From positions 278,895 through 342,894 of the forward strand of contig NW_008705585.1 in NCBI RefSeq assembly GCF_000186865.1: a stretch of 64,000 nucleotides of DNA, given 5' to 3'. Positions 1,200 to 63,264 of the stretch are shown here, one piece after another. This DNA is from Aureococcus anophagefferens (Eukaryota; Sar; Pelagophyceae; Pelagomonadales; Pelagomonadaceae). Positions within the stretch are counted from its first letter, which is position 1; each line of letters begins with the position of its first letter. The notes under the pieces were generated by a model. That model was not told the DNA's origin. It ran no database searches and worked only from the letters and a program-made list of their open reading frames with translations. Both the position numbers and the translations under genes were made by a program.

Positions 1200-2368
1200 C
1201 TAAGTTCCTACTTCGCGCGTCGTCGTCGTCGCCACGTCGCAGTCGAGCACGAGGGGCGGCGCCTCCCGCTCGGGCGCGAGGTCCGGGCACCGCGGCGCCA
1301 TCCACCACTTCTCCTTCGCGGCCGCGCCCCGGACGCCGAGCAGGTCCGCGCCGAGCTTGGCGTGGTGCGCCTTCGTGATGCCGTGGCCGTTGCGCTTGCC
1401 CTTGAGGCGGCTCGTGCGGCTGAGGTGGTTGAGGACCGCGTAGCGCGCGCCGTCGATGGCCGCGGGCGTCGGCTTCGAGAGCGTCTCCGGCGGTAGTGGA
1501 GCAAACATGCAGGCGCCGGACTCGATGATCTCCCGCAGCAGGGGCTGGTCGCGCACGGACGACCGCTTGATCCGCGCGCCCTCGCGGTTCGCCGCGGCCG
1601 CGCGCCGCAGCTCGTCGAGCACCCTGGCCGCCCAGGCCGCGAGGCAGGGCTCCGACTTGCCGCGCGCCACGGCGAAGATGCCGCCGTGGTAGGGCTCCGC
1701 CGCGAGGCGGCCCGGGTCGCGGACGTCGGCCGTGACCTGGGCAGCACAAGGGTGATTCAAGTTCGCTTCAACGTGAGTGTTCCGCGCGCGCGCGTTCCGG
1801 AAAAAGCATCCACGCTTCGAGACCGTTCCGAGAGATGATCGCTCGTCCAAAAATGAGCCGAAACGAGTGGAAAATGGCCGAGATATGAGCCTTTGAAGTT
1901 GGGAATTTCGCTCTCTTGTCCTGCCCCGGCCGTGACCTCGGCCTCCTCGTAGGCGAGCAGCGTCGCGGGCGACGCCGCCAGCGCCGCGACGGCCGTCGCC
2001 AGGAGCGGCGCCAGGGGCGCGCCGACGATGACGTCCGCGTCCATGTAGAGCACGACGCGCTCGGGCCCGGCCGCCGCGACGTCGAGCACGCGCATCTTGA
2101 GCTGCTTGTACAATATGGAGCCCGCGCGCGCGTCGCAGCGGTCCTCGAGGCGCACGGGCACGACGACGACGCCCCGCGGCGCGCAGCGCGGCTTGTCCGT
2201 GAACGCGTAGACCGTGCCGGCAAAGGCGCCGCGCTCACGGATGGAGCGCACGCACATGCCGAAGAGCGACTCCTCGGCGAGTTCGCCCATGGCGATGACG
2301 GCGATGGCCGCGTCGTCGCTGGCGCGCGCGATGCATGCGAGCGCGAGGAGCTTCAGCAGCGACGGCAT
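1200..2368 (-). CDS. Secreted/Golgi glycosyltransferase-like protein with an introner intron
   Basis: Two exons on the minus strand, 2368-1937 and 1736-1200, joined in phase 0 across a 200-nt intron (1737-1936) made by an introner. The spliced protein has about 322 residues. It begins with a signal peptide (MPSLLKLLALACIARAS), then an alpha/beta nucleotide-sugar fold with VVLYMDADVIVG, where DAD looks like the DxD metal/nucleotide-sugar motif of GT8/GT-A enzymes. Splicing restores LLAYEEAE-VTADVRDPG without adding or losing residues. A role in transferring a sugar in the secretory pathway is inferred from the signal peptide and DxD only; donor and acceptor are unknown. The start lies 113 bp from the divergent start of the next gene. 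Confidence 0.72.
1737..1928 (+). mobile_element. Introner element, family 1, copy 1 (192 bp)
   Basis: The ends are inverted (CTGGGCAGCACAAG on the left; the right end reads GGGCAGGACAAG on the other strand). A perfect 8-bp duplication GCCGTGAC flanks it at 1729-1736 and 1929-1936. In the minus-strand host gene the intron is the element plus one duplication copy (200 nt). The donor GT comes from the duplicated target and the acceptor CAG from the element end. It matches three other copies in the window almost base for base. Confidence 0.92.
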
Positions 2369-2481: not shown

Positions 2482-4226
2482 ATGATGGCCATGCGCTTGG
2501 TCTTGTCCCTCGTCGCCGTCGTCGGCGGCGCGGGGAGCCGGGGGTCGAGCGGCTGCGAGGCCTGCGTCGGCCTGAGCGCCCGCGGGTGCCTCGACGCCCT
2601 CGGGGCGTCCCTGGCGGCCCTCGGCGACGGCAGCCGCGTGATGGTGCTCGAGACGGTCCTCGCGGGCAGCGACCGCTGCGACGGCGCGGACCTCGCGACG
2701 TGCGCGGCCCGCTACGACGAGCTCGTGGCGTCGCTGGCCCGGCCGGCGCGCCTGCGGCGCCTGCGGGCGGCCTGCGGCGGCGGCCGCGCGGCCGCGGCCG
2801 CGGCCGGCGCGGCCGCGCCGGACGCGTTCGGCGCCGGCGGCGACGGCGCCGCGGCCGCCGGGCCGCCCTGGGGCGTCGCGAGCCTCGGCGGCTGGTCCCT
2901 CGGTTCCGCGGGGCGCGAGACGGCGACCTGCGCCGCCTGCGACGGCGCGGCGACGCGCGACGGCTGCGTGCGGGCCGCCTTGGCCGCGCATTTCGACGAC
3001 GCCGCGGGCCTCGCGGCCGTCGTCGACGCGCGCGTCCTGGGGCAGCCCGACGACTCCGACGACGACGCCGCGCGCGCGGCGCTCCTCGCGGCGCTCTGGG
3101 ACGGCGGCGTCGACGGCGCCGCGCGCTACGCCGCGGTCGTCTCGGCGTGCGCGGCCGTCGAAGCCCGCGGCCGCGACGCCTTCCTCGGCGACGGCCGGGG
3201 CGCCGCCTACGCCGAGGAGCGGCGCACGGGCTCCTGCGGCGCCTGCGGCGACGGCGACGACGCCGCGTGCGCCGCGCGGCTCCGGGAGGCGCTCCGCGCG
3301 GCGGACGACGACGACCGCCTCGCGGTCTACGAGGTCGCCTTCGCCGGCGGCGACGACTGGTGCGCCGGCGGCAACGACGCGGCGACCTGCGCCGACCGGC
3401 GTCCTTCGAGGCATGTGCGGGACCAGGAAATCGTCGCGGTCCGTAGGCGCCGACAGGCTCGAGGGCGTCCTCTTCGACGGCCTCGACGACGGCGCGCGCG
3501 CGGACGCGCTCGAGCGCGCGTGCGCGGCGGCGCGCCGCGCGTCGGGCGCGTCGTGGGCCGCGCCGCTCCTCGGGCGCAAGGCCGACGACGACGAGGTCAA
3601 CGACCTCACGACGACCACCACCACCACGGCGAAGACGAAGAAGCGGGGCTACGTCGACGGCTACGGCGCCGCGCGGACGGCGGGCGCGGCCGCCGTCGCC
3701 GCGGGCCACGCGTCGCGGAGCCGCGGCGGCTCCGTGAACCGCCGCTACAAGCGCAAGCGCACGTCGCTGACGTTCGCGAAGACCTGTGTGGAAATCAACC
3801 ACTGGTTTGGGGGGTCCTGACCAAACTTCAGAACTCTCTAGCTCGATCAAATCGAAGTCGATTTGGCTGACTTCTGGACGAATCGATTGCTCTCGTCGAG
3901 TTCTCGAAGCACGGCCGAAGGACTTGCGTCGAAACGGATGCATACGCGCACATTGAAGTCGGGTTGAAGATTTGATTTCCACGCAGGCGAAGACGGTGTT
4001 GCCCCTCGCGGGGCTCTTCGCGGCCTTTTACGTCGCGCGCGCGGCCGCGCGCCGGCTCCGGGGCCGGCGCCAGGGCTACGCGCGCGTGCCCAAGTCCGAC
4101 GACCTACCCGACGCCGGGGGCCAGGTCTGGGCCATCCCGACGTCGGGCCTCGTGCGCCGGCCGTCCGCGGAGCTCCTCCAGCAGACCGCCGACGCCATGC
4201 GCGACGAGGAGCGGTTCCAGATCTGA
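2482..4226 (+). CDS. Cys-repeat secreted/membrane protein, three exons
   Basis: The chosen start gives MMAMRLVLSLVAVVGGAGS, a clear signal peptide; an in-frame ATG at 2422 would add 20 residues. Exons are about 2482-3388, 3447-3775 and 3987-4226 (about 491 residues). The luminal part has three copies of a CxxC...C module (CEACVGLSARGCLDAL, CAACDGAATRDGCVRAAL, CGACGDGDDAACAARL). Exon 3 begins with a membrane segment (TVLPLAGLFAAFYVA) followed by a short basic tail, so the product looks like a type I membrane protein. Intron 2 is an introner with a GC donor. Intron 1 is 58 nt (GC donor) or 46 nt (GT donor); both keep the frame. No family was recognised; the Cys modules suggest disulfide-rich extracellular repeats. 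Confidence 0.62.
3389..3446 (+). other. Short intron flanked by an 8-bp direct repeat
   Basis: The coding frame changes here. The repeat GCGCCGAC occurs at 3389-3396 and again at 3447-3454, exactly after the acceptor GTAG. Removing 3389-3446 with a GC donor restores ATCADRLEG. A GT donor at 3401 also keeps frame but leaves four extra residues. The layout (duplicated 8-mer, GC donor from the duplication) copies the introner pattern with only a 50-bp insert. Confidence 0.5.
3784..3986 (+). mobile_element. Introner element, family 2, copy A (203 bp)
   Basis: The ends are inverted: CTGTGTGGAAATCAA on the left and TTGATTTCCACGCAG on the right. A perfect 8-bp duplication GCGAAGAC lies at 3776-3783 and 3987-3994. 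The host is on the plus strand. The intron 3776-3986 (211 nt) uses GC from the duplication as donor and the terminal CAG of the element as acceptor. The result is LTFAKTVLPLAG, with the membrane segment in frame. Its inner sequence matches copy B at 41915-42105. Confidence 0.88.
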
Positions 4227-18275: not shown

Positions 18276-20707
18276 TCAGCCCCACACCTTGACCGTGTTG
18301 TCGAACGACCCGGAGACGACGCGCCGGCCGTCGGGGAAGACGGCGACGCCGTCGACCTAAAGCCAAGGGAGATCACACCCGAAAGAACAAGGACGCCGCA
18401 CCACACTGCATACGAAGTCCCGGACAGCGTCGCGACGCACTCGCCCGTGGCCGCGTCCCAGACCTTGACCTTCTTGTCGTCCGACCCGGAGACGACGCGC
18501 CGGCCGTCGGGGAAGACGGCGACGCTTGTGACCTAAAAAACCAGGAAGATCACACCCTAAAGAACCAGGACGCCGCACCAAACCGTTTTCTCATGTCCGC
18601 ACAGCGTCGCGACGCACTCGCCCGTGGCCGCGTCCCAGACCTTGACCGTGTTGTCGGACGACGCGGAGACGACGCGCCGGCCGTCGGGGAAGACGGCGAC
18701 GCTTGTGACCTAAAAAACCAGGAAGATCACACGCGAAAGAATAAGGACGCCGCGCCACACGGTATTCGAATGCCCGGCCAGCGTCGCGACACACTCGCCC
18801 GTGGCCGCGTCCCAGACCTTGACCGTCTCGTCGTCCGCCCCGGAGACGACGCGCCGCCCGTCGGGGAAGACGGCGACGCTCTTGACCTAAAAGCCAGGGA
18901 GATCACACACACAAGAAAAACAGAGAAGACGCCGCGCCACACGGTATTCGAATGCCCGGCCAGCGTCGCGACACACTCGCCCGTGGCCGCGTCCCACACC
19001 TTGACCGTTTCGTCGTACGACCCGGAGACGACGCGCCGGCCGTCGGGGAAGACGGCGACGCTCTTGACCTAAAAAAACAGGAAGATCACACGCGAAAGAA
19101 TAAGGACGCCGCGCCACACCGTCCCCGAATGCCCGGCCAGCGTCGCGACGCACTCGCCCGTGGCCACGTCCCACACCTTGACAGTCTCGTCCTTCGACCC
19201 GGAGACGACGCGCCGGCCGTCGGGGAAGACGGCGACGCTCTTGACCTAAAAGCCAGGAAGATCACACACACACAAGAGAAACAGCAGAGAAGACGCCGCG
19301 CCACACCTCCCCCGAATGCCCAGCCAGCGTCGCGACGCACTCGCCCGTGGCCGCGTCCCACACCTTGACCGTCTTGTCGCTCGACCCGGAGACGACGCGC
19401 CGGCCGTCGGGGAAGACGGCGACGCTGCTGACCTAAACGCCAGAGAGATCACAGAATCGCAGAAACAAGGACGCCGCGCCCCACGTTCTCCGAATGCCCG
19501 GCCAGCGTCGCGACGCACTTTTTCGTGGCCATGCCCCACACCTTGACCGCCTCGTCCTTCGACGCGGAGACGACGCGCCGGCCGTCGGGGAAAACGGCGA
19601 CGCTCCAGACCTAAAGACTGAAGTTCACACGCTAAAGAACGAGGACGCCGCGCCACACGCAATCCGATTGCCCCAGCGTCGCGACGCACTCGCCCGTGGC
19701 CGCGTCCCACACCTTCACCGTCCCGTCGTCCGACCCGGAGACGACGCGCCGGCCGTTGAAGAAGACGGCGACGCTGTTGACCTAAAAAAGCAGGGGAGAT
19801 CACACCCGAAAGAACGAGGACGCCGCGCCACACCCGCTCCGAATGCCCGGCCAGCGTCGCGACGCACTTGCCCGTGGCCGCGTCCCACACCTTGACCATC
19901 GCGTCGCCCGCCCCGGAGACGACGTGCCGGCCGTCGGGGAAGACGGCGACGCAGTGGACCTAAAGACGGAAGATCACACACACACAACACAAGAAAATCA
20001 GAGAAGACGCCGCGCCACACCGCCCCTAACCCAAATCTTCTGGGCGAATGCCCGGCGAGCGTCGCGACGCACTCGCCCGTGGCCGCGTCCCACACCTTGA
20101 CCGTGACGTCGTTCGACCCGGAGACGACGCGCCGGCCGTCGGGGAAGACGGCGACGCTTGTGACCTAAAAACCAGAGAGATCACACCCTAAAGAACCGGG
20201 ACGCCGCGCCACACCCGATTCGAATGCCCGGCCAGCGTCGCGACGCACTCGCCCGTGGCCGTGTCCCACACCTTGACCGTGTTGTCGTCCGCCCCGGAGA
20301 CGACGCGCCGGCCGTCGGGGAACACGGCGACGGCGAAGACCTGAAGACAAAAGATCACACACAGAGAAAACAGAGAAGACGCCGCGCCACACGTCATTCG
20401 AATGCCCGGCCAGCGTCGCGACGCACTCGCCCGTGGCCGCGTCCCAGACCTTGACCGTGTTGTCCTCCGACCCGGAGACGACGCGTCGGCCGTCGGGGAA
20501 GACGGCGACGCTCCAGACCTAAAAGACAAAAAATAACACACACACAAGAAAAACAGAGAAGACGCTGCGCCACACCCCCTTCGAATGCCCGGCCAGCGTC
20601 GCGACGCACTCGCCCGTGGCCGCGTCCCACACCTTCACCGTCCCGTCGTCCGAGTCCGACCCGGAGACGACGCGCCGGCCGTCGGGGAAGACGGCGACGC
20701 TCCAGGC
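18276..20707 (-). repeat. Tandem array of 14 exon-intron units, one WD40 repeat per exon
   Basis: Thirteen introns of 48-61 nt separate 14 WD40 exons; a further intron (20708-20763) joins the array to exon 1. Eleven exons are exactly 126 nt. The exceptions are 144 nt at 20021-20164, 132 nt at 20576-20707, 123 nt at 19659-19781, and the last (18276-18356), which ends after TVKVWG. Introns begin GTGTGG or close variants and end TTTAG or similar, all in phase 0 just after GHSxx. The near-identity of exons and introns alike shows repeated unit duplication or gene conversion. Confidence 0.93.
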
Positions 20708-23700
20708 CTAAGACGAAAGATCACACACGCAGAAAAACATAAAAAGAAGACGCCGCGTCACACCCCATACGCTTTCAGCCTCGCGAGCTCGGCCAACTTG
20801 GAGAGGTCCACGATCTTCAAAAACGGCATGAATCGCAGCTTCGCAGCGTCCACAGACACGCAGCTGCTTGTGTCCCAGATCGACTGCCTCACCTTTGGCA
20901 CCGCCGCCGCGGGGCTCTCCTGCTCGAACGTCTCCACGGCCACGACTTCCCCACCGCCGTCGCCGACCGCCAGTCGCTCCGCCACGCTCGAGTCCTCTTC
21001 ACGCTCCAAAATAAGGAGACGCGGAGGGATTTCACGCTCCAAAGCCGCGCCCGGCGCCGCGTCGGGCACCTCGCGAACGCCGTCGCCGCCCTTGTCCGCG
21101 TACGACGCCGGGCTCTCCTGCTCTATCGGCTCCACAGCCGCCACGTCCCCACTGTTCACAGCCGCAACTTCCCCACCGCCGTCCTCGACTGCCAGTCGCT
21201 CCGCCACGTTCGAGACCTCTTCTTGTTGCGTCGCCACCGCCTCAGCCGCCTCGTCGCGCGCCTCTCGAGCGCCGTTGCCGCCCTTGCCCTCGCAAAACGC
21301 GACGACGTCGTCCGCCGCCGTCTCCGAGCGGTCGAGTTTCGCGAGCTGCTCGTCGAAGCCCGTGTCCTCCTTGAGCTCCAGCCGCCCGAGGAACTCGAGC
21401 CAGCCGCCGGGCACGCGGTGGTTGACGACGGCGACGGCCAGCTGCGCGCGCGTCATCGCCCGGTACAGCCGCGACCGCGTCTCGAGGGCCGTCGCGTCGT
21501 CGACGGAGATGGCGTGGTCCAGCCCGGCGCAGATGACGACGAGCCGCTCGAGGCCGTCGATGTTGTCGACGGTGTCGACGACGAGCCACGCCGCCGACCC
21601 TTCGCGCCCGCCGCGGTCGCGCGGCAGCGTCGCGCTCGCCGTCGCCGCGTCGACGATCTCAAAGCTCCGCCCGAGCCGCTTGGCGAGCGCCACACAAAGC
21701 TCCTCGCAAAAGTCGGCGTCGGGGCAGACGACGGCGACGCGGTCGTCAAGGTCCATGCCGTGGAGCTGACGTCGGATGGACGCGATCGCCGCGTTTACCT
21801 CCTGCGCGTAGCGCTCGACGTCGTCGCCGTCGAAGAGCCGCGCCTCGAGCGGTGGGCCGTCGGACGCCGAGTGGCCCCGCGTCGCCGCCTTCTTCCCGGC
21901 CTCGAGCTGGAAGGCCGCGGCGCCCGCGACGATGCGTTTCGTCGAGCGGACCACCTCCTCGAGCGCGACCGTCGCGACCTCGGCAGATTCGGGCACGTCC
22001 GCGATCGACCGCACCAGTCCGGCCCCGTCCATGGTCGACGTCGCCTGGGACGCGTCGCCGAGGAAGAGAAAACGATCAGCGGCGACGCCGCGAATCGCCT
22101 CGCGCGCTTCCACGTCGCCGGCGAGGTGGTGCGCCTCGTCCACGACGGCGATGCCGTAGCGCTCCGTCTCCTCGACGCGGTCGCCGATGGCCAGGCGCTG
22201 CCGCCCGTCCGCCTCCTCGATGCGGATCTCGAGCGGACCGCGCTCAAAAGGGGCGACGAGCACGCGGACGCGGTCGGCGACGCGCCGCGCCGAAGTCCGG
22301 GACGCGACGACGAGCCACTTGACCACGAAGAGCGCCAGCGCGGTGTTCTTCGAGACAAAGAGCACCATCTGGTTCGCGTGGAGGACCTCGAGCGCGCGCT
22401 GGATCGCCACGAACGTCTTGCCGCCGCCCGCGGGCGCCAGGAGCAGCGCGTATTGCGCCACGCGCACGTCGCCGAGCTTCTCGCGCTGGTGCCGCGTGAG
22501 CTTCGTGAAGCGCATCATGCTGCTCGCGTAGCACTCGAGGAAGGCGCCGCGGTCGCAGCGGAGCGGCACGGCGTCCCCAGCGACGAGCGGTCGCTCCCAT
22601 AGCCCCTGCTTTGCGCCGCGGTAGAACTCTCGGCCGTCGACGAGGTCCTCCTTCTCGTAGCCGAGCCCCAGCAGCTCCTCGTCCGTCGCCGGCCGCGCAC
22701 TCGCCGGCACAGGGACCGTCGGCCGCCGGAACTGCGCTTGGTTTGCGTCGTGGTAGAACTCTCGGCCGTCGACGAGGTCCTCCTTCTCGTAGCCGAGCCC
22801 CAACAGCTCCTCGTCCGTCGCCGGCCGCCTGCTCGCTGGCACCGGGACTGTCGGCCGCTCGAACTGCGTCTGGTTTGCGTCGTGGTAGAACTCTCGGCCG
22901 TCGACGATGTCCTCCTTCTCGTAGCCGAGCCCCAACAGCTCCTCGTCCGTCGCCGGCCACCTGAATGCCGGTTCCGGGACTGTCGGTCGCTCGAACTGGG
23001 CCTCGTTCTCGTGGACGTAGAACTCGCGGCCGGAGGCTGTCTCGAGCTTCTCATAATCGAGTCCTGGCAGTTCCTCGTCCGTCGCCGGCCGCCGGCTCGC
23101 TGGCACAGGGACCGTCGGCCGCTCATTCCATCCAGCCCGATCGATGACGGAGAAGGGCCACCAGTAGGCGTACTCGTCGAAGTCGTTGGCGTCGAAGAGG
23201 AGGTAGGTCGAGTCCTCCGCGTCGTCCTTCTCGACGAGGAACGTTTTCCCCAGCGCGGCCTCCCAGTCGTCCGGCAGGCCCAGGGAGTCGTCGCGGGCCT
23301 CGAAGGCAGCCAGGACGCGCGCGCGGTCATCGCTCACGCGCACGCGCGTCCCGCGCGCAAGAGGGTGGAACGCGGCAGGGTGGAACGCGGCCAGGACGTA
23401 GAACTCGCGACCGGAGGTTGTCACGAGTTTCTCATATCCGAGTCCTGGCAGCTCCTCGTCCGTCGCCGGCCGCCGGCTCGCTGGCACAGGAACCGTCGGC
23501 CGCTCGAACTGGGCCTCGTCCAAGGGCTGGAGCTCGATGACGGAGAAGGGCCACCACTCGCCCATGTTGTCGGCATCCTCGTCGAAGTCCTCGGCGTCGA
23601 CGAGGAGGTAGGTCGAGTCCTCCGCGTCGTCCTTCTCGACGAGGAACGCTTTCCCCAGCGCGGCCTCCCAGTCGTCCGGCAGGCCCAGGGAGTCGTCGCG

Positions 23701-26106: not shown

Positions 26107-29100
26107 CTAGAGCGCGGCCGCGGCCGCGGCGACGCGGGCCGCGGCGTCCTCGGCGAGGCCGTGGGGCGAGATGGACTCGTCGTCGTCCTCGCCGTCGTCG
26201 AGCGCGTCGAAGAGCGCGTTGAGCGCGGCCTCGAGCGCGGCCGCGGGCGCGTCCTTCGTCGCCTTGAGCACGGCGGGCCGGCACTTGCGGTCCAGGGCGG
26301 CCTCGAAGGCGGCGCAGGCGTCGGCCACGGCCTGCTCGTCGGCCGCGCGGTCCGGCGCGTTCTTGCGCGCGCGCGGCGGCGGCCGCGGCGCGGGCGCGGG
26401 CGCCGCGGTGGCCTTGGGCGGCGTCGCGTCGGAGCCGCGCTCCGAGCCCTCGGCGCGCTTCTTGTGGAAGGCGTCGCACTTGGCGACGAGGTCCCAGCCG
26501 ACCTTCTTCTGGAAGCGGTGGGCCATGGACCGCGCGAGGTCCTCCGCGTTCGCCGCCGCGTGCGCCAAATCGTCCGCGCGCGCGTGGCCCAGCGCCGCGG
26601 CGCGGAACGCGGCCGCGTTCTCGCGGACGACGCGCACGTCGCTGAGGAAGTGGCGCAGCGTCGGGTAGAGGCCGCCGTCGACCTTGGCGCGGACGACGGA
26701 CAGGTCCATGGGCGACTGGACGACCGCAAAGTACTCGGGCGACTCCTCGGGGTCGACGGGCCGCCAGAGCGCCTGGAGGCTCCGGTCCGCCTTGAGCTCG
26801 CGGAGCGCCGCGCGGAGGAAGACGCGCAGCTCGCGCAGGCAGTGCGCCTCCTTCTCGCCGGGCTCGCGCGGAGCCGCGGGGCTCGGCGCGGGCGACTCGT
26901 CGGCCTCCGACGGCGCCTTGTCCTCGTCGTCCTCCGCGGGCTCCTCCGCGGGCAGGCGCGCGGCCTCGAGGCCCGCGCGGAAGGCCGCGGCGACCTCGCC
27001 GAGGCCCAGGGCCCAGAAGGCCTCGCGCGCCTTCTTCGACGGCGCGGGCACGGCGACCTCGGCCGCGGCCGCGAGCGCGTCGGGCGCCGCGACGTCGTCG
27101 TCGTCGAGGGCCCCGCCGGCCGTCGTCGCGACGACGAGGAGCGCCTGGTCCTCGCGCGCCTCGAGGAGGAGGGCCCGGAGCGCGACTTTCGTCTGCGGAA
27201 GCGCGTGCGCCCACCACTCGTCGACGTCCGGGAGGAAGAGGACCTGGGCAGCACAAGAGTGATTCAACGTCGCTTCAACGTGGGTGTTCCGCGCGCGCGC
27301 GTTCCGGAAAACACATCCACGCTTCGAGACCGTTCCGAGAGATGATCGCTCGTCCAAAAATCAGCCGAAACGAGTGGAAAATGGCCGAGATCGGAGCCTT
27401 TGAAGTTGGGAATTTCGCTCTCTTGTGCTGCCCTGAAGAGCACCGCGCTACCCGCGCGGCCCGCGGCCGCGCGCGCGTCGCGGACGCGCGCCGCGAGCGC
27501 CGCGTCGGGCGCGAGGCCCGCCGCGCCGTCGCGGAGCAAGGCGCCCGCGCCGCCGTGCGCGATCGCCGCGCCGCCGCGCTCGAGCGCGTCGAGCACGGCC
27601 GCGGCGACGACGTCGCGGTCGCGCGGCGCCGCGGCGGAGAGCACGACGGCCCGGGGCCGCGCGAAGGCCGCGGCGCCGCGGCAGGGCGCGCGGTGCGCCG
27701 CGACGGCGTACCCAAAGGCCGTCGCGGGCGCGGCCNNNNNNNNNNNNNNNNNNNNNNNNNNNNNNNNNNNNNNNNNNNNNNNNNNNNNNNNNNNNNNNNN
27801 NNNNNNNNNNNNNNNNNNNNNNNNNNNNNNNNNNNNNNNNNNNNAGCGCCGCCTCGGCGCAGAGCGCCTTGAGGTCCGCGCCCGCGAAGCCGCCGCAGCG
27901 CTTCGCGAGCGCCTTCAGTAGGGGCGGCCGCGGCCGCGACGCGGGCGCCCAGGACGACGTGTGGAGCGCGAGGATGGCCTCGCGCTGGGCCGCGTCGGGC
28001 GCGACGAACTTGAGCTCGCGGTCGAAGCGGCCCGGCCGCCGGAGCGCGGGGTCGAGCGCGTCCGGCCGGTTCGTCGCGCCGATGACGACGACGTCGCCGC
28101 GGTCGCTCAAGCCGTCCATCAAAGCGAGGAGCGTCGCGACGACGGAGTGCTGGGCGAGCTCGCCGCCGCCGCCGCCGCGGCCGCTGCCCCGCGCGGGCGC
28201 GAGGCCGTCGAGCTCGTCGAAGAAGATGATCGACGGCGCCTTCGCGCGCGCCTCCTCGAAGAGCGTCGAGAGCGCGCGCTCGGCCTCGCCGACGTACTTG
28301 GAGAGGCAGTCGGCGCCGTTGCGGACGAAGAAGGAGACGCCGCCGGGGTGGGCCTTCTTCGCGGCCTTGTCGCCGGCCTTGCGCTGCGCGACGAGCTCCG
28401 CGGAGCACGCCTCCGCGAGCTGCCGCGCGAGGAGCGTCTTGCCCGTGCCCGGGGGCCCGTGGAAGAGGACGCCCCGCGGCGGCGCCACGCCGAGGGACGC
28501 GTAGAGGTTCGGGTGCTTGAGGGGCAGGAGCACCATCTCCTCGAGGGACTTGAGGTGGGCCTCGAGGCCCGCGACGCCCACAAAGGGCTTCGGCGCGGGC
28601 GGCGGGCCCCGGGGGCGCGCGTCGTCGTCGTCGTCGTCGTCGTCGCTGGAGCTGTCCTCGCCGACGGGCGCCGACGAGAAGAGGCGGTCCTTCTTCCGGT
28701 CCGACTTGGACCGCGGCTCCACGGAGCTGTCGGACGTCGAGAAGTAGGGGTTCGCGCGCCGCGGCGCGGACCGGCGGCGCCGGCCGCGGTCGCGGCGGTC
28801 GCGGCCGCCGCGCTCGGGCGAGTCCATGCCGTAGGTCGGCAGCTCCAGGTTCTCGCGGCGCCGGCCCCGCCGCTCCGCCTCCTCCTCGGAGTCGGCCTTG
28901 TAGCGGCCGCCGGACGTCGGGCTCTGGGGGCTCCGCGCGCGCTTGCGCTCGCGGGGGCGGCCCCCGAGGCCGTTGTTCGGCGTGTCGCCCGTGACGTTCA
29001 TGAGCGCCCGGGGCTTGGGCGCGCGCCGCGTCCGCCGCACGCCGTCGTCGTCGTCGTCGTCGTCCTCGCTCGACGACGACGCGCCCGCGAGCTTCCAGGG

Positions 29101-41017: not shown

Positions 41018-43462
41018 CTACCGCGGCGCCGCATTGCCGTACCGGGGCTTGCGGAGGATGGAGACGACGCGGTAGACGAGGCGCCGGCGGTAGGGCGCCC
41101 TGCCGCGCGGCAGCGCCGCGACCCAGGGCCCGTCCAGACCCTCGGCGACCTGCCAGCCGTCGGCGTCGCAGCGGCCGTCGCCCCCGCCCCGCGCGCGCTG
41201 GAGCTCCGCGACGACGCGCTCGTCGTCGCCGACGGACTCGATGCCCGGGCTGAACGTCGCGTCGTCGGCCGCGGCGGCGTAGGCGTCGCCGTCGTCGGGC
41301 ACGCGCGCGTAGCCCAACAGCTGCCAGCCGCCCGCCGGGCTGCCCGACCCCTCGGGCGGCGGCGGCGGCGTCACGCAGGACGCGAGCGACGGCAGCGTCC
41401 CGTCGCCGCAGTTCTCCAGGTTCGGCGCGCCGCAGAAATAGTCCAGACCCGTGAGCGAGTTGCACGACGCCGCGTCCGCGGCGCCCCGGCTCCGCCGGCA
41501 GTGGTAGACGAAGAAGCGGTCCTTCTTCGCGACGCCGAGGGCCAGGGCGCGCCGCGCCCCCACGAACCGGAGCGTCACCAGCACCCGCGCGCCCACCCCC
41601 AAGTTGTCGTCGTCGACGAGTTTGAGCGCCGCGCCGAAGACGTCGTCGCCCTCGTCGTCGACGACGTCCAGCGGCAACATCGACGCGGCGACGACGTCGC
41701 AGTCGTCCGCGCCGGGCGCCGTGCGCCCGACGTCGTGGACCGAGACGACCAGCTTCGTCCGCGCGAGGTCCTCCGCTCTCACGTGGAAGACGCAGCGCGT
41801 CGCCCCTTCCGCCAGGCGCCACGTGTAGACCGGCGGCTCCGCCGCGTCGACGGCGTTGAGGGGCTGCGGCGTGACCAGCCGAGCGACGCCGTACGCGTCG
41901 TGCGGCGCGGTGGCCTGTGCCGAATGCAACCGCTGGTTTGGGACGTCCCGACCAAACTTCTCGAGCTCGGTCACATCGAAGTCGATTCGGCTGATATTTG
42001 GACGCATCGATGGCTCTCGTCGAGTTCTCGAAGCAAAGCCGAAAAGGTTGCGTCGAAACTGTCGCGTACGCTCACATTGAAGTCGAGTTGAAGATTTCCA
42101 CACGGGCGGTCGCGGGCAGCGCGCCGTCGACGCCGCGCACGTCGACGATGACGAGCTCCTTGGGCTCCTCGAACAGCAGCATCTTGTCGTCGGCCTGGGA
42201 CAGCTCCACGTCGCGGGGCTTGGGCGGGGGGAGGGTGGGTTTAGAGCGAGGATCGGCGAGTTCGTAGAGCCAGTCGGACCACGTCCTCAAGCTCTTCGAC
42301 GCGTCGACGACCGCGTCGGCGCCCGTCCCGGGCTTCCGCACGCCCGCGACCCACAGCGCCAGCTTCGCCTTCGTCGCGCCGTCGAGGTCGTCGTAGGCGC
42401 CGAAGGCCCGCTCCGCGAAGGCCCGCGTGCACGCGCAGCGCCGTTCGAGGTCGTCGTCGTCCAAGCCCGCGCCCAGATGCGCGGAGACGTGCGCCAGCGG
42501 CGCGAAGGTCTGCTCGTCGTCGTCGTCGAGGCGGGGCGTTTGCCGGCGCCGCGGCGACCCCGGGCGGCCGTCGTCGTCGTCGAGGACGAGCGCCGCCGGC
42601 GCGCGCGGCGCAGCGTTCGCGCCGGCCGCGTGGAGGGCCCGCGCTCGAGTCATGTGGAACGGGATGTCGAAGAGCTCGGCGTCGTGCGTGACGCAGGCGA
42701 TGCGCAACACCGTCGTCTCGCGTCCGTCGTCCAGACCGCCCGTGACGACGACGCAGGCCTCGCCGCGCGTCAGCGCCGCGGCGACGAGCTGCGCGTCGAC
42801 GACCTGGGCAGGAAAAGAGTGATTCAACGTCGCTTCAACGTGAGTGTTCCGCGCGCGCGCGTTCCGGAAAAAGCATTCATGCTTCGAGACCGTTCCGAGA
42901 GACGATCGCTCGTCCAAAACCAGCCGAAACGAGTGGAAACCGGCCGAGATAGGCGCCTTTGAAGTTGGGAATTTCGCTCTCTTTTCCTGCCCCGGTCGAC
43001 GACGGAGTCGGCCAGATCCCAGCGCCGCGAGCCGCCCCGGCCCTCGGCGTAGCCGTCGACGACCGTCGCCGCCTCGGCCCACTCCGCGAACTTGAGCGAG
43101 GCGCCGCAGGCCTCGAGGAAGACGTCGCAGGGGCGCGCGAGCGCGGCGCGCCCCCGCTCGCTGTCCTCGCGGCCGGCGACTCTCGCGACGAAGCGCTTCG
43201 CCGCCTCGGCGAGGTCCGCGCTGCCGCTCCAGGCGCCCAGGCCCGCGGCGAGCGTCGCCAGCGCCTCGCCGCTGCGCTGGAGCTTCACGCCGGCCCAGCG
43301 GCGCCCGGCGCCGGGCGCCGCGACGAGGCGGAAGCTCACGTCCTCGCAGCCGTCGTCGTCGACGGCCTCGCAGGCGAAGAGGCAGGGCAGGCTCTCGGAC
43401 CGCTTGTGCGGCCGGGCCGGCCCGCGCGGCGCGGCGCGGTCCACGGCCGACGCGTAGTCCAT
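41018..43462 (-). CDS. Unknown protein split by two introner introns, possible C2-like domain
   Basis: Exons 43462-43004, 42803-42114 and 41914-41018, all in phase 0, give 681 residues from MDYASAVDRAAPRGPARP. The middle has two acidic Asp runs (LVLDDDDGRPGSP, RLDDDDEQTF). After the second junction, VYTWRLAEGATRCVFHVR and LARTKLVVSVHDVG, then ASMLPLDVVDDEGDDVFGAA, resemble a beta-rich C2-like lipid- or calcium-binding fold. A Cys-containing segment (VYHCRRSRGAADAASCNSL...YFCGAPNLENCG) follows. Both introns vanish cleanly on removal of element plus one target copy (LADS-VVDAQL and GALP-ATAPHD). No enzyme motif is visible. Confidence 0.72.
41915..42105 (+). mobile_element. Introner element, family 2, copy B (191 bp)
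   Basis: It matches copy A at 3784-3986 through the interior (for example GACCAAACTTC, TCTCGTCGAGTTCTCGAAGC, CACATTGAAGTCG). The right end GATTTCCACACGG is conserved; the left end CTGTGCCGAATG has drifted. Flanking 8-mers GCGGTGGC (41907-41914) and GCGGTCGC (42106-42113) differ at one base. The host gene is on minus, so this copy lies in the opposite orientation to its gene compared with copy A. GC-AG intron of 199 nt. Confidence 0.87.
42804..42995 (+). mobile_element. Introner element, family 1, copy 3 (192 bp)
   Basis: The ends are CTGGGCAGGAAAAG and CTTTTCCTGCCC, a compensated change on both arms compared with the other copies. Target duplication TCGACGAC at 42796-42803 and 42996-43003, perfect. 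GT-AG intron of 200 nt in the minus-strand host. Confidence 0.92.
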
Positions 43463-53293: not shown

Positions 53294-55407
53294 ATGCCCG
53301 GCCTCAGCCTGCTGCTCGAGCAGCGCGCGGCGCGCATCAAGCGCCTCGAGTCCCAGCCCAAGCCCATCCCGCTCAAGGAGCACCGCGACTACGGCAAGTA
53401 CTTCACGTGGCTCAAGGAGGGCAAGTTCAGCAAGGGCGAGATCTCGACGCAGCTGCTCCACGCGGGCCTCGACGCCAAGGTCCTGGAGCAGGACCCGGAG
53501 AAGCCGTTGGGCTGGAAGGCGGGCGACGAGGTGTCCAAACGGCCGAAGTCCGCGCCCGCGCCCGTGACGTCGCGGAGCAAGCCGGGCCTCCAGGCCGTCT
53601 TCTCCATGTTCGACCAGGGCTCCGGGTCCATGGACACGCGGCGCCTCGGCGCCTGCCTCCACAAGCTCGGCATCAAGTACGACCGGACGCTCCTCGACGA
53701 GGCGACGGCCGCGTTCGACGCGGACAAGTCCGGGAAGATCGAGTTCGACGAGTTCGTCGAGATGTTCGCGACGCTGCGGGCGAGCGACGAGCTGCGTTTA
53801 GGCGAGATCGGCGCCAAGGTGCTGCCCCTCGACGACAGCGAGGCGTCCGACGCGAAGGCCGCGTTCGACAAGATCGACGCCGACGGCTCGGGCGCCATCC
53901 AGGGCAGGACAAGGGTGATTCAACATAGCTTCAACGTGAGTGTTCCGCGCGCGCGCGTTCTGGAAAAAGCATCCACGCTTCGAGACCGTTCCGAGAGATG
54001 ATCGCTCGTCCAAAAGTCAGCCGAAACGAGTGGAAAACGGCCGAGAGATGAGCCTTTGAAGTTGGGAATTTCGCACTCTTGTCCTGCCCAGGCGCCATCG
54101 ACGAGGGGGAGGTCGAGGCGCTCTTCAAGGACGTCGGCCTGTCCGCCACGAAGAAGGAGATCGCGTCGCTGATCCAGTTCCTGGACACGGACAAGTCGGG
54201 CGAGATCGAGTTCAACGAGTTCACGCGGCTCATGGAGATGGCCAAGGGCCGCCAGACCGAGGCCGGCGCGCCGCTGAACGCGGTGGCCGCGCTGGCGGAT
54301 TTGTTCGAGGAGCGGCGCAAGGCCGACAAGGTCAAGCAGGTCGCCATCTCCGCGGCGCTGGCGGCGCTGCACCGCGGCGCGACGACGATCAAGGACATCG
54401 CGATGCTCGCGGAGTCGACGGTCCGCGTGTTGGTCGGCCAGCAGACGTCGGACGCGGTGACAAGGATCTTGAAGGAGGCGGGCGAGGGCGCCCTCGAGGC
54501 CGCGCTCGCCCTCGCGCGCACGGAGTTGATGTTGGCCTGCGAGACGGGCGACCTCGACGTGGTGAAGAAGGCGCTCGCGAAGGGCGCGCCGCCGGACACG
54601 AGGCAGCGCGACTGCGACGGCACGTTCGCGGCCCCGGAGCCGACGAGTTTGATGGCGTCGCCGCGCGACCCGTCCCTGGACGAGGAGCCCAAGCACGGCG
54701 CGGGCCGGACCGTGCTCCTCGTGGCGCTGGAGAACGGCCACGCGAAGATCGCCTACGAGCTCATCGCGGCGGGCGCGACGCACGACCTCGCGGACGACAC
54801 GGACGGCCTCACGCCGCTCATGATGGCGCCCAAGGCGCTGAGCGTGGTCAAGCACGCGAAGCTCGTGGACTGCCTCTTCGGCTGCGGCCCCGCGGCGAAG
54901 CCGGACATGAAAAAGGCGGACGTCGCCGCGACGCTCGAGGCGACGGGCTGGACCGCGGCGTCGTACGCGGCCGCGTTCGGCCGCGACGCGTACCTGCGGC
55001 GGCTGGTCAAGGAGGGCTGCCCGCCGAACGCGAGCCGGCCGGGCACGGCGAGCCCCCTCATCCTCGCGGCGAAGAACGACCACCTCCGCTGCGTCGAGTT
55101 CCTCTGCAACGACCCGGACCTCATGGGCGTGACGCAGCTCGACGCCAAGGACGAGCAGGCGAAGACGGCCGTGGCCTGGGCCCAGGCGGGGGACCACAAG
55201 CCCGTCATCGAGGTCATCAACAAGGCGCGCGCGCGCGCGGCGAACCCGGAGGCCTTCCAGAAGGACAACCGGCGCAAGTCGTCCGTCGGCCGCGGCGACC
55301 TCGCCAACTCCGCGTCGGCGGGCGCGCTCGGCGCCAAGAGCAAGAGCGGCCGGCGCCGCTCCTTCTCGGGCTCGTTCGGCGACAAGCCCGAGAAGAAGGC
55401 CGCCTAG
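53294..55407 (+). CDS. EF-hand and ankyrin-repeat protein with an introner inside an EF-hand
   Basis: Exons 53294-53891 and 54092-55407 give 637 residues from MPGLSLLLEQRAARIKRL. EF-hand-like units: FSMFDQGSGSMDTRRLG (degenerate), FDADKSGKIEFDEFVEMF, FDKIDADGSGAIDEGEVEAL and LDTDKSGEIEFNEFTRLM; three have full calcium loops. Ankyrin-like repeats follow (LMLACETGDLDVVKKALAKG, VLLVALENGHAKIAYELIAA, SPLILAAKNDHLRCVEFLCN). The tail is basic and Ser-rich (KSKSGRRRSFSGSFGDKPEK). The introner splits the third calcium loop between G and AID and needs a GC donor; splicing restores a perfect loop. A calcium-responsive adaptor is inferred; no catalytic domain is visible. Confidence 0.9.
53900..54091 (+). 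mobile_element. Introner element, family 1, copy 4 (192 bp), opposite to its gene's sense compared with the others
   Basis: Same length and interior as copies 1-3. Perfect duplication GCGCCATC at 53892-53899 and 54092-54099. All four copies lie in the same direction on the plus strand. Copies 1-3 are in minus-strand genes and this one is in a plus-strand gene, so the element works as an intron in both directions. Here the donor is GC and the acceptor is the right-end CAG. Confidence 0.92.
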
Positions 55408-62466: not shown

Positions 62467-63264
62467 TTATTTCCAGGCGCAAGGGCCTCCTGCGTTGTAA
62501 ATGAACTTGGCCCAGTCCGGGCACGACTGAAGACCTGAGTCAACGAACGCGTCCCCCATATCAGACACCTGCGACGCGTCCCAGGCGTCGATGTCCTGGC
62601 TGAAGGCGGAGGCGTTTTTGAACATACTGTTCATGTTGCCATTCTTCGACACGTCCCAGTCGCCGATGTCCTGATTGAAAGCAACGGCGTTAATAAACAT
62701 CCAGCGCATGTCCGCCGCCTTTGCCACATCCCAGGCGCCAACGGGCTGATTGAAAGCGACGGCAGTGTTCAACATATCTTGTGTATAAAACACCTTCGAC
62801 ACGTCCCAGTCGCCGATGGGTTGGTTGAAGGCGGCGGCGGGTCCAAACGTCCCGTATGTTCTCGTCACCTTCGACGTGTCCCAGTCGCTGATGTCCGCGT
62901 TGAAGGCGGAGGCGCCTCGGAACAGGGAGTCGATGTCGGTCACCTTCGACACATCCCAACCTTTGATGTTCGCGTTGAAGGCGGACTTCAACGCGTTGTT
63001 GAAGAACGTCGCGGACATACGCGTCACCGACGACACGTCCCAGTCGCCGATGGGTCTGTTGAGCGTCGACGCCGTCGCACGTGGCGTTGGCGGGGCACTC
63101 GAGGCAGACGTTGTTCTCGACGTACTTGTCGACGGCGCACTCCGTCGCGTTGGCGCCGTCGCACGTGAAGCCGGTCGGGCACTCGAGGCACTCGTTGTCG
63201 TCGACGTACTTGTCGACGGCGCAGGCTGTCGCGTTGGCGCCGTCGCACGTGAAGCAGGGAGCAC
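62467..63264 (-). pseudogene. DUF285 (BspA-like) repeat protein, 5' truncated with a frame break
   Basis: The C-terminal 200 residues are DUF285 repeats of about 30-35 residues (FNQPIGDWDVSKV, FNQDIGDWDVSK, FNADISDWDTSKV), found in large surface-protein families of algae and bacteria. The end is PDWAKFIYNAGGPCAWK. Upstream on the same strand a different frame encodes two Cys-rich units (CFTCDGANATACAVDKYVDD and a near copy), the usual N-terminal partner. The frames meet at about 63055 without an evident intron. The gene then stops at about 63262, where CGGTTACGG-type repeat DNA begins. No start codon or signal peptide is visible. I read it as a truncated gene or a repeat-collapsed assembly of a longer one. 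Confidence 0.7.

Follow-up and report, generated by a model that had tools for sequence, protein, structure and literature searches.

Introner-type elements and the introns they are predicted to form in a 64-kb window of the Aureococcus anophagefferens genome

Introduction

The 64,000-nucleotide stretch of Aureococcus anophagefferens DNA analysed here (the window) contains four closely similar elements of 192 bp that interrupt coding frames, which raises the question of what these elements are and how their host genes remain readable. Huff, Zilberman and Roy reportedly described in 2016 introners of A. anophagefferens that generate introns of ~200 nt and bear 8-bp target site duplications (TSDs) and terminal inverted repeats (TIRs); the element is said to carry one splice site and to recruit the other from the target duplication. 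By this description, the window elements share both species and design with those introners. Intron gain by introners in A. anophagefferens is already known (PMC9481584, PMC7789003), and ~210 bp is given as their characteristic length in PMC9481584. We have analysed the window elements and their relatives across the genome, with respect to their structure, their behaviour as predicted introns and their mobility.

Results

Two families of elements in the window

The four elements (family 1, copies 1 to 4; Table 1) were found with the coordinates and the length of 192 bp that a previous sequence-only reading had given, each producing a predicted intron of 200 nt. The inverted ends and interior that this reading had described as common to the copies were borne out by the TIRs and by pairwise identities of 173–181 of 192–193 aligned columns (pairs with copy 3 including two gap columns). 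A 28-base core, searched with up to three mismatches, occurred at only four places in the window, those of copies 1–4, and at none in 100 shuffles. All four predicted introns were terminated by CTGCCCAG; the element body was the same throughout, but the end that supplied this sequence in copy 4 was opposite to the one used in copies 1–3. An 8-bp duplication had been assigned to every copy; it was exact in copies 1, 3 and 4, but matched at only seven of eight positions in copy 2. The count of four elements held for family 1 and was incomplete for the window, where two copies of a related second family were also present; the sequence-only reading was silent on this family, on GC donors and on the existence of two splice polarities.

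Table 1. Family-1 and family-2 elements of the window, with their predicted introns and target site duplications
Element	Position	Strand	Length (bp)	Predicted intron	Splice sites	Phase	TSD	Remark
Family 1, copy 1	1737-1928	-	192	1737-1936	GT-AG	0	GCCGTGAC at 1729-1736 and 1929-1936	exact, 8 bp
Family 1, copy 2	27244-27435	-	192	27244-27443	GT-AG	0	AAGAGGAC (27236-27243) / AAGAGCAC (27436-27443)	7/8 match; phase by frame ruler
Family 1, copy 3	42804-42995	-	192	42804-43003	GT-AG	0	TCGACGAC at 42796-42803 and 42996-43003	exact, 8 bp
Family 1, copy 4	53900-54091	+	192	53892-54091	GC-AG	1	GCGCCATC at 53892-53899 and 54092-54099	exact, 8 bp; minority splice polarity
Family 2	3784-3986	uncertain	203				GCGAAGAC at 3776-3783 and 3987-3994	+ strand ends CTGTGTGGAAATC and GATTTCCACGCAG
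Family 2	41915-42105	-	191	41915-42113	GC-AG	0	GCGACCGC (42106-42113) / GCCACCGC (41907-41914)	7/8 match

The second family was recognized because the family-1 profile also matched weaker elements with a common interior and different ends. Most of these had CTGTGTGGAAATC-type TIRs, were 202–203 bp long and were flanked by 8-bp duplications, and a 30-base family-2 core with up to three mismatches was found at 775 + 751 = 1,526 places genome-wide (control, 0). Several family-2 elements carried AG at both ends, and the predicted family-2 acceptors of the window read CACAG or CGCAG. At 3784-3986 either strand had a GY...AG pair, GC-AG on the + strand and GT-AG on the - strand; phase 0 on the + strand was open for 378 and 79 codons, and the frame ruler (see below) favoured different strands on the two flanks.

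Two other repeats were observed in the window. The first, at 18281-20763 on the - strand, was a tandem array with units of ~177 bp (13.4 copies by TRF) and 13 acceptor-like sites; by eye it resembled WD40-like exons of constant length, each followed by an intron of ~50 nt and varying length that ended in TTTAG before GTC. The second, at 62566-62982, consisted of five copies with a 75-bp period.

Copy number and structure of family 1 across the genome

A 33-base family-1 core, with up to three mismatches, was located at 957 + 926 = 1,883 places in the 49.05-Mb genome, and the reversed-pattern control gave 0 + 0; a lack of further copies, which the sequence-only reading had named as a refutation, was thus not what the genome showed. 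Two overlapping samples were examined. In the first, 76 of 80 copies found could be bounded, and in the second, built from exact-core places plus the window, 104 of 109, the remaining four and five copies being dropped for unclear ends. Both samples are biased towards well-conserved copies, since they were drawn from exact-core places on C1–C3 and from the best matches to copy 1. Comparison of the 76 bounded copies of the first sample established that near-identical predicted introns are present at many unrelated sites.

The TSD was of 8 bp, perfect in 97 of the 104 bounded copies of the second sample and with one mismatch in the other 7. The element length was 192 bp in 83 of these 104 copies and 176–198 bp in the others. 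The inverted ends extended over ~14 bp, with arms of the form GGGCAG..CTGCCC in which positions 9 and 11 co-varied: the two arms were of identical type in 36 of 76 copies, whereas 2,000 shuffles gave 15.6 such copies on average and never more than 27. An AG was present at exactly one element end in 76/76 copies of the first sample, and divergence of the interior from the consensus was low (median 2.5% in one polarity class and 3.75% in the other). Two relatives of family 1 that were shorter, very rich in GC and weak in profile score were also noticed (L050:1106-1259, 179 bp; L026:2525-2639, 169 bp), which are possibly older copies drifting toward host composition.

Family-1 elements behave as predicted introns

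Reading frames on both sides of each element were compared by a frame ruler, that is, the GC content at codon positions in 240-base flanks, the best frame being compared across the element. After excision of the element plus 8 bp, 71 of 76 copies gave the same frame on both flanks, in each case on the strand that the AG end had predicted. In the second, overlapping sample, from which the one copy with no AG end was left out, 96 of 103 copies had agreeing frames when read in the sense direction. Removal of the 200 nt rejoins the reading frame with nothing gained or lost. These results, together with the interruption of coding frames by copies 1–4, upheld the earlier claim that removal of the element plus one target copy restores the frame. 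They also bear on the possibility that the elements are ordinary gene-disrupting miniature transposons (MITEs) that are retained in the message, in which case the apparent introns would only reflect the open frames of GC-rich sequence. Unrelated frames do often stay open for 100 or more codons in this GC-rich genome, but shifting the excision by -2, -1, +1 or +2 bases reduced frame agreement to 2, 1, 2 and 1 of 76 copies, respectively, and the target began with GY in 75 of 76 copies though GC and GT together make up only ~20% of the flank dinucleotides. We consider this explanation extremely improbable.

Among the spliced host peptides of copies 1, 2, 3 and 4 and of the family-2 copy at 41915-42105, only that of copy 4 gave a Pfam match. 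Copy 4 splits an EF-hand within its calcium-binding loop, and EF-hand Pfam models spanned the spliced junction. Relatives of this host protein amounted to 21 matches, three of which (P0019, P0020, P0026) bear the name Ca2-binding protein with Aureococcus anophagefferens as species, in agreement with a host that is this pelagophyte or one very close to it. Eight were aligned, and six of these (P0016, P0017, P0018, P0019, P0021 and P0022) were uninterrupted across the junction; P0023 also had no insert there, but was too diverged at this point to be compared. P0016–P0019 were 99–100% identical to the spliced product in the aligned columns, and the spliced loop, DADGSGAIDE, was likewise found in P0016–P0019 and P0021, P0022 being more distant. 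P0017 bears an MMETSP transcript name, which points to an RNA-derived product that crosses the copy-4 junction exactly; however, its strain may be without copy 4, so this transcript is no proof that copy 4 is spliced. The NCBI model P0020 contained a 16-residue insert at the copy-4 site, 15 residues of which were identical to the translated target copy plus the copy-4 element. This insert would be explained if the gene finder accepted only GT donors and chose a GT inside the element, the true donor being GC, and errors of this kind may be frequent in the gene models of A. anophagefferens. As a separate observation, P0016–P0018 (one of them transcript-named) lacked 36 residues present in the window frame and in the NCBI model P0019, a gap consistent with an additional in-frame intron in the copy-4 host gene, as judged from the alignment.

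Three further candidate signals were considered and discarded. Folding of whole-intron RNAs gave mixed z scores (+0.77, -2.40, -3.32), so a hairpin was rejected as a general splicing signal; nor would a hairpin be decisive, since transposition favours symmetric ends too. A branch point at -17 was suggested by an A in 21/24 acceptors of one polarity class (P, see below) and 58/79 of the other (M), yet the same base occurred in 24/24 donor-side ends of class P. A longer TSD, or a proto-splice target with AG preceding GY, was discarded because AG was not enriched at exon positions -2/-1.

The predicted 5' splice site is taken from the target

The 5' splice site of the predicted introns came from the target, the TSD beginning with GY in 75 of 76 copies, and the 3' AG from the element. 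In the splice direction, the target started with GC in 39 copies, GT in 36 and GA in 1 (first sample, 76 copies), and with GC in 61, GT in 41 and GA in 1 of 103 copies of the second sample; GC donors were thus present in over half of the sampled family-1 predicted introns. In the flanking exons GC accounted for 15.7% of dinucleotides and GT for 4.4%, GC being ~3.6 times as common, and by arithmetic from these counts the acceptance of GT per opportunity was ~2.4 to 3.3 times that of GC. Intron phase was linked to the donor (n = 71), with 23 GT donors in phase 0, 21 GC donors in phase 1 and no GT donor in phase 1, a link that fits donors drawn from existing codons. The accessible text of PMC3033335 gives 39.6% of GC-AG introns in this alga and terms this an enigma; introner donors drawn from GC-rich coding targets offer a cause for this high share.

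Sampled family-1 copies are concentrated in coding sequence

By the frame ruler, both flanks were coding at 700 of 1,465 window positions (overlapping, taken every 40 bases) and at 61 of 76 insertion sites, and after correction for ruler sensitivity about 60% of the window would be coding. The coding share of the sampled family-1 copies was ~93% by frame agreement (71/76; 96/103). Under random insertion the expected share is, by arithmetic, ~13%, given that about one in ten coding insertions has the right direction and a GY, and that non-coding insertions are tolerated. The difference between ~93% and ~13% means that either targeting of coding sequence or selective retention in it is needed. 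The near absence of family 1 from non-coding DNA in the samples counts against random insertion followed by selection for splicing, and is puzzling in that an element presumably harmless between genes is confined almost wholly to coding sequence. In a wider, partly overlapping set that included diverged and second-family copies, frames agreed in 28 of 34 cases and disagreed in 6, three matches at locus edges falling outside the frame test.

Mode of spread

The near-exclusive location in coding sequence, in the splice direction, is also what would be predicted if introns were copied via RNA, a spliced intron being reverse-spliced into other transcripts and then reverse-transcribed into the genome. 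Such a route has been proposed for fungal introners, according to the accessible part of PMC9860276. Against it stand the clean 8-bp duplications (97/104 perfect) and the co-variation of the inverted arms (36/76), both marks of DNA transposition, and we regard RNA copying as highly improbable here. The elements are instead almost certainly introners, that is, short non-autonomous, MITE-like DNA transposons with TIRs that turn into introns upon insertion. The same identification had been made in the sequence-only reading, and it gained support from the dispersed near-identical elements, their TIRs and 8-bp TSDs, and the origin of the 5' splice site in the TSD and of the 3' splice site in the element.

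With respect to the source of the transposase, the donor-side end CAGGG presumably fits the hAT end consensus, and the 8-bp TSD is as in hAT-type MITEs. Unlike these, the acceptor-side end was CTGGG, and the hAT dimerisation domain was not found, the control genomes being silent too. Models for hAT dimerisation, KDZ, MULE and IS1595 (PF05699, PF18758, PF10551, PF12762) gave no matches in the alga's own genome; the first two were silent in the controls, so that for them the lack of matches is no argument that such a transposase is absent, and the others matched prokaryotic controls only. Viruses were considered as carriers: an exact 18-base core had no matches in IMG/VR, from which records near the window's genome may be omitted, and Aureococcus is not named in the available portion of a mirusvirus paper checked for introners (PMC12768974).

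Presence and absence of insertions among relatives

The spliced protein at copy 1 (322 aa) had four relatives, P0001–P0004, of 97–98% identity and uninterrupted, lying on contigs of less than 1.9 kb that could be transcripts. At copy 3, P0015 (97% identical to the window protein over 57% of the query; four contigs, the longest of 10.1 kb) was continuous at the insertion site and then read into the family-2 element (41915-42105) of the same gene. At copy 4, P0021 (99% identical over 67% of the query; one contig of 10.2 kb) was continuous at the insertion site and read into a family-1 element elsewhere, which matched the translated consensus at 54 of 56 residues and lay where the window frame was unbroken. 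Since they run into elements, and given the size of their contigs, P0015 and P0021 look genomic and not like mature mRNA. The insertions accordingly look polymorphic from these comparisons, relatives of 97–99% identity being without copies 3 and 4. Recent spread had previously been proposed from equal element lengths; the spread itself is supported by presence and absence in near-identical proteins, but the lengths are not strict.

The gene at 41907-43003 hosts both copy 3 and the family-2 copy at 41915-42105, and P0015 has the family-2 copy and not the family-1 copy, which suggests the relative age of the two insertions in this gene.

Two splice polarities of one element body

When the copies were oriented by the core, the AG end lay on the left (class M) in 63 and on the right (class P, to which copy 4 belongs) in 13 of the 76 copies of the first sample, never at both ends or at neither. 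In the second sample it lay on the left in 79 and on the right in 24 of 104 copies, at both ends in 0 and at neither in 1, this last copy counting against the introner identification. Class M ends were CT on the left with YG on the right (79 copies), and class P ends mostly CR on the left with AG on the right (24 copies). Differences of over 35 percentage points between the bodies of the two classes were confined to positions 2, 9, 62, 176 and 191 of 192. These results indicated that the same element body became an intron in both directions, once or repeatedly.

The two polarities could correspond to two old family-1 subfamilies, each surviving in its splicing orientation, with no repeated switching. 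A single clade was not rejected (AU p 0.207), and an A at position 176 was present in 10/13 P against 5/63 M copies (21/24 against 10/79 in the second sample). On the other hand, the best interior tree required 10 polarity changes (7–10 in bootstraps, 2 forced by well-supported branches), although its resolution was poor, and 11 of 13 P copies were as close or closer to an M copy than to any other P copy, M copies being five times commoner. On balance we lean slightly towards the two subfamilies. Repeated switching was not accepted as proven on this tree. More tentatively, and in our judgement rather unlikely, polarity might be switchable: it would depend chiefly on the second base from either end, and the inverted ends would repeatedly have undergone exchange or inversion with each other. 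On this reading, the near absence of non-coding copies would also mean that coding sequence is targeted by insertion itself and not just favoured by selection for splicing.

Discussion

The results fit a model in which an element body of 192 bp (family 1) or ~203 bp (family 2), bearing ~14-bp inverted ends and lying between 8-bp target duplications, would have been inserted by a transposase acting in trans that cuts the target with an 8-bp stagger. In the direction of the gene, the upstream family-1 target copy, starting with GT or GC, would serve as 5' splice site, and the element end CTGCCCAG as 3' splice site. Insertions in which the target G(T/C) is well placed and well oriented would be spliced out and persist, other genic insertions being presumably purged. 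In the pre-mRNA, base pairing between the inverted ends may hold donor and acceptor close to each other.

The elements resemble the families of Gozashti et al. (2022), which have TSDs and TIRs, with the 3' splice site in the element and the 5' splice site derived from the TSD (PMC9860276). They differ from the Aureococcus sp. example in Fig. 2F of that paper, a family described there as having both splice sites within the element and as lengthening the transcript by 12 bp. The introners of Micromonas pusilla are alike by description, being short intron-generating elements of a GC-rich picoalga, with TSD and TIR in some families as far as the accessible text goes (PMC9860276); their host is a green alga, unlike the pelagophyte studied here. 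Gene enrichment of introners is given for 161 of 175 genomes in that paper (PMC9860276).

Few mechanisms of rapid intron gain have genome-scale support; introners are among them, and the genome of this brown-tide alga catches intron gain while some copies still look polymorphic.
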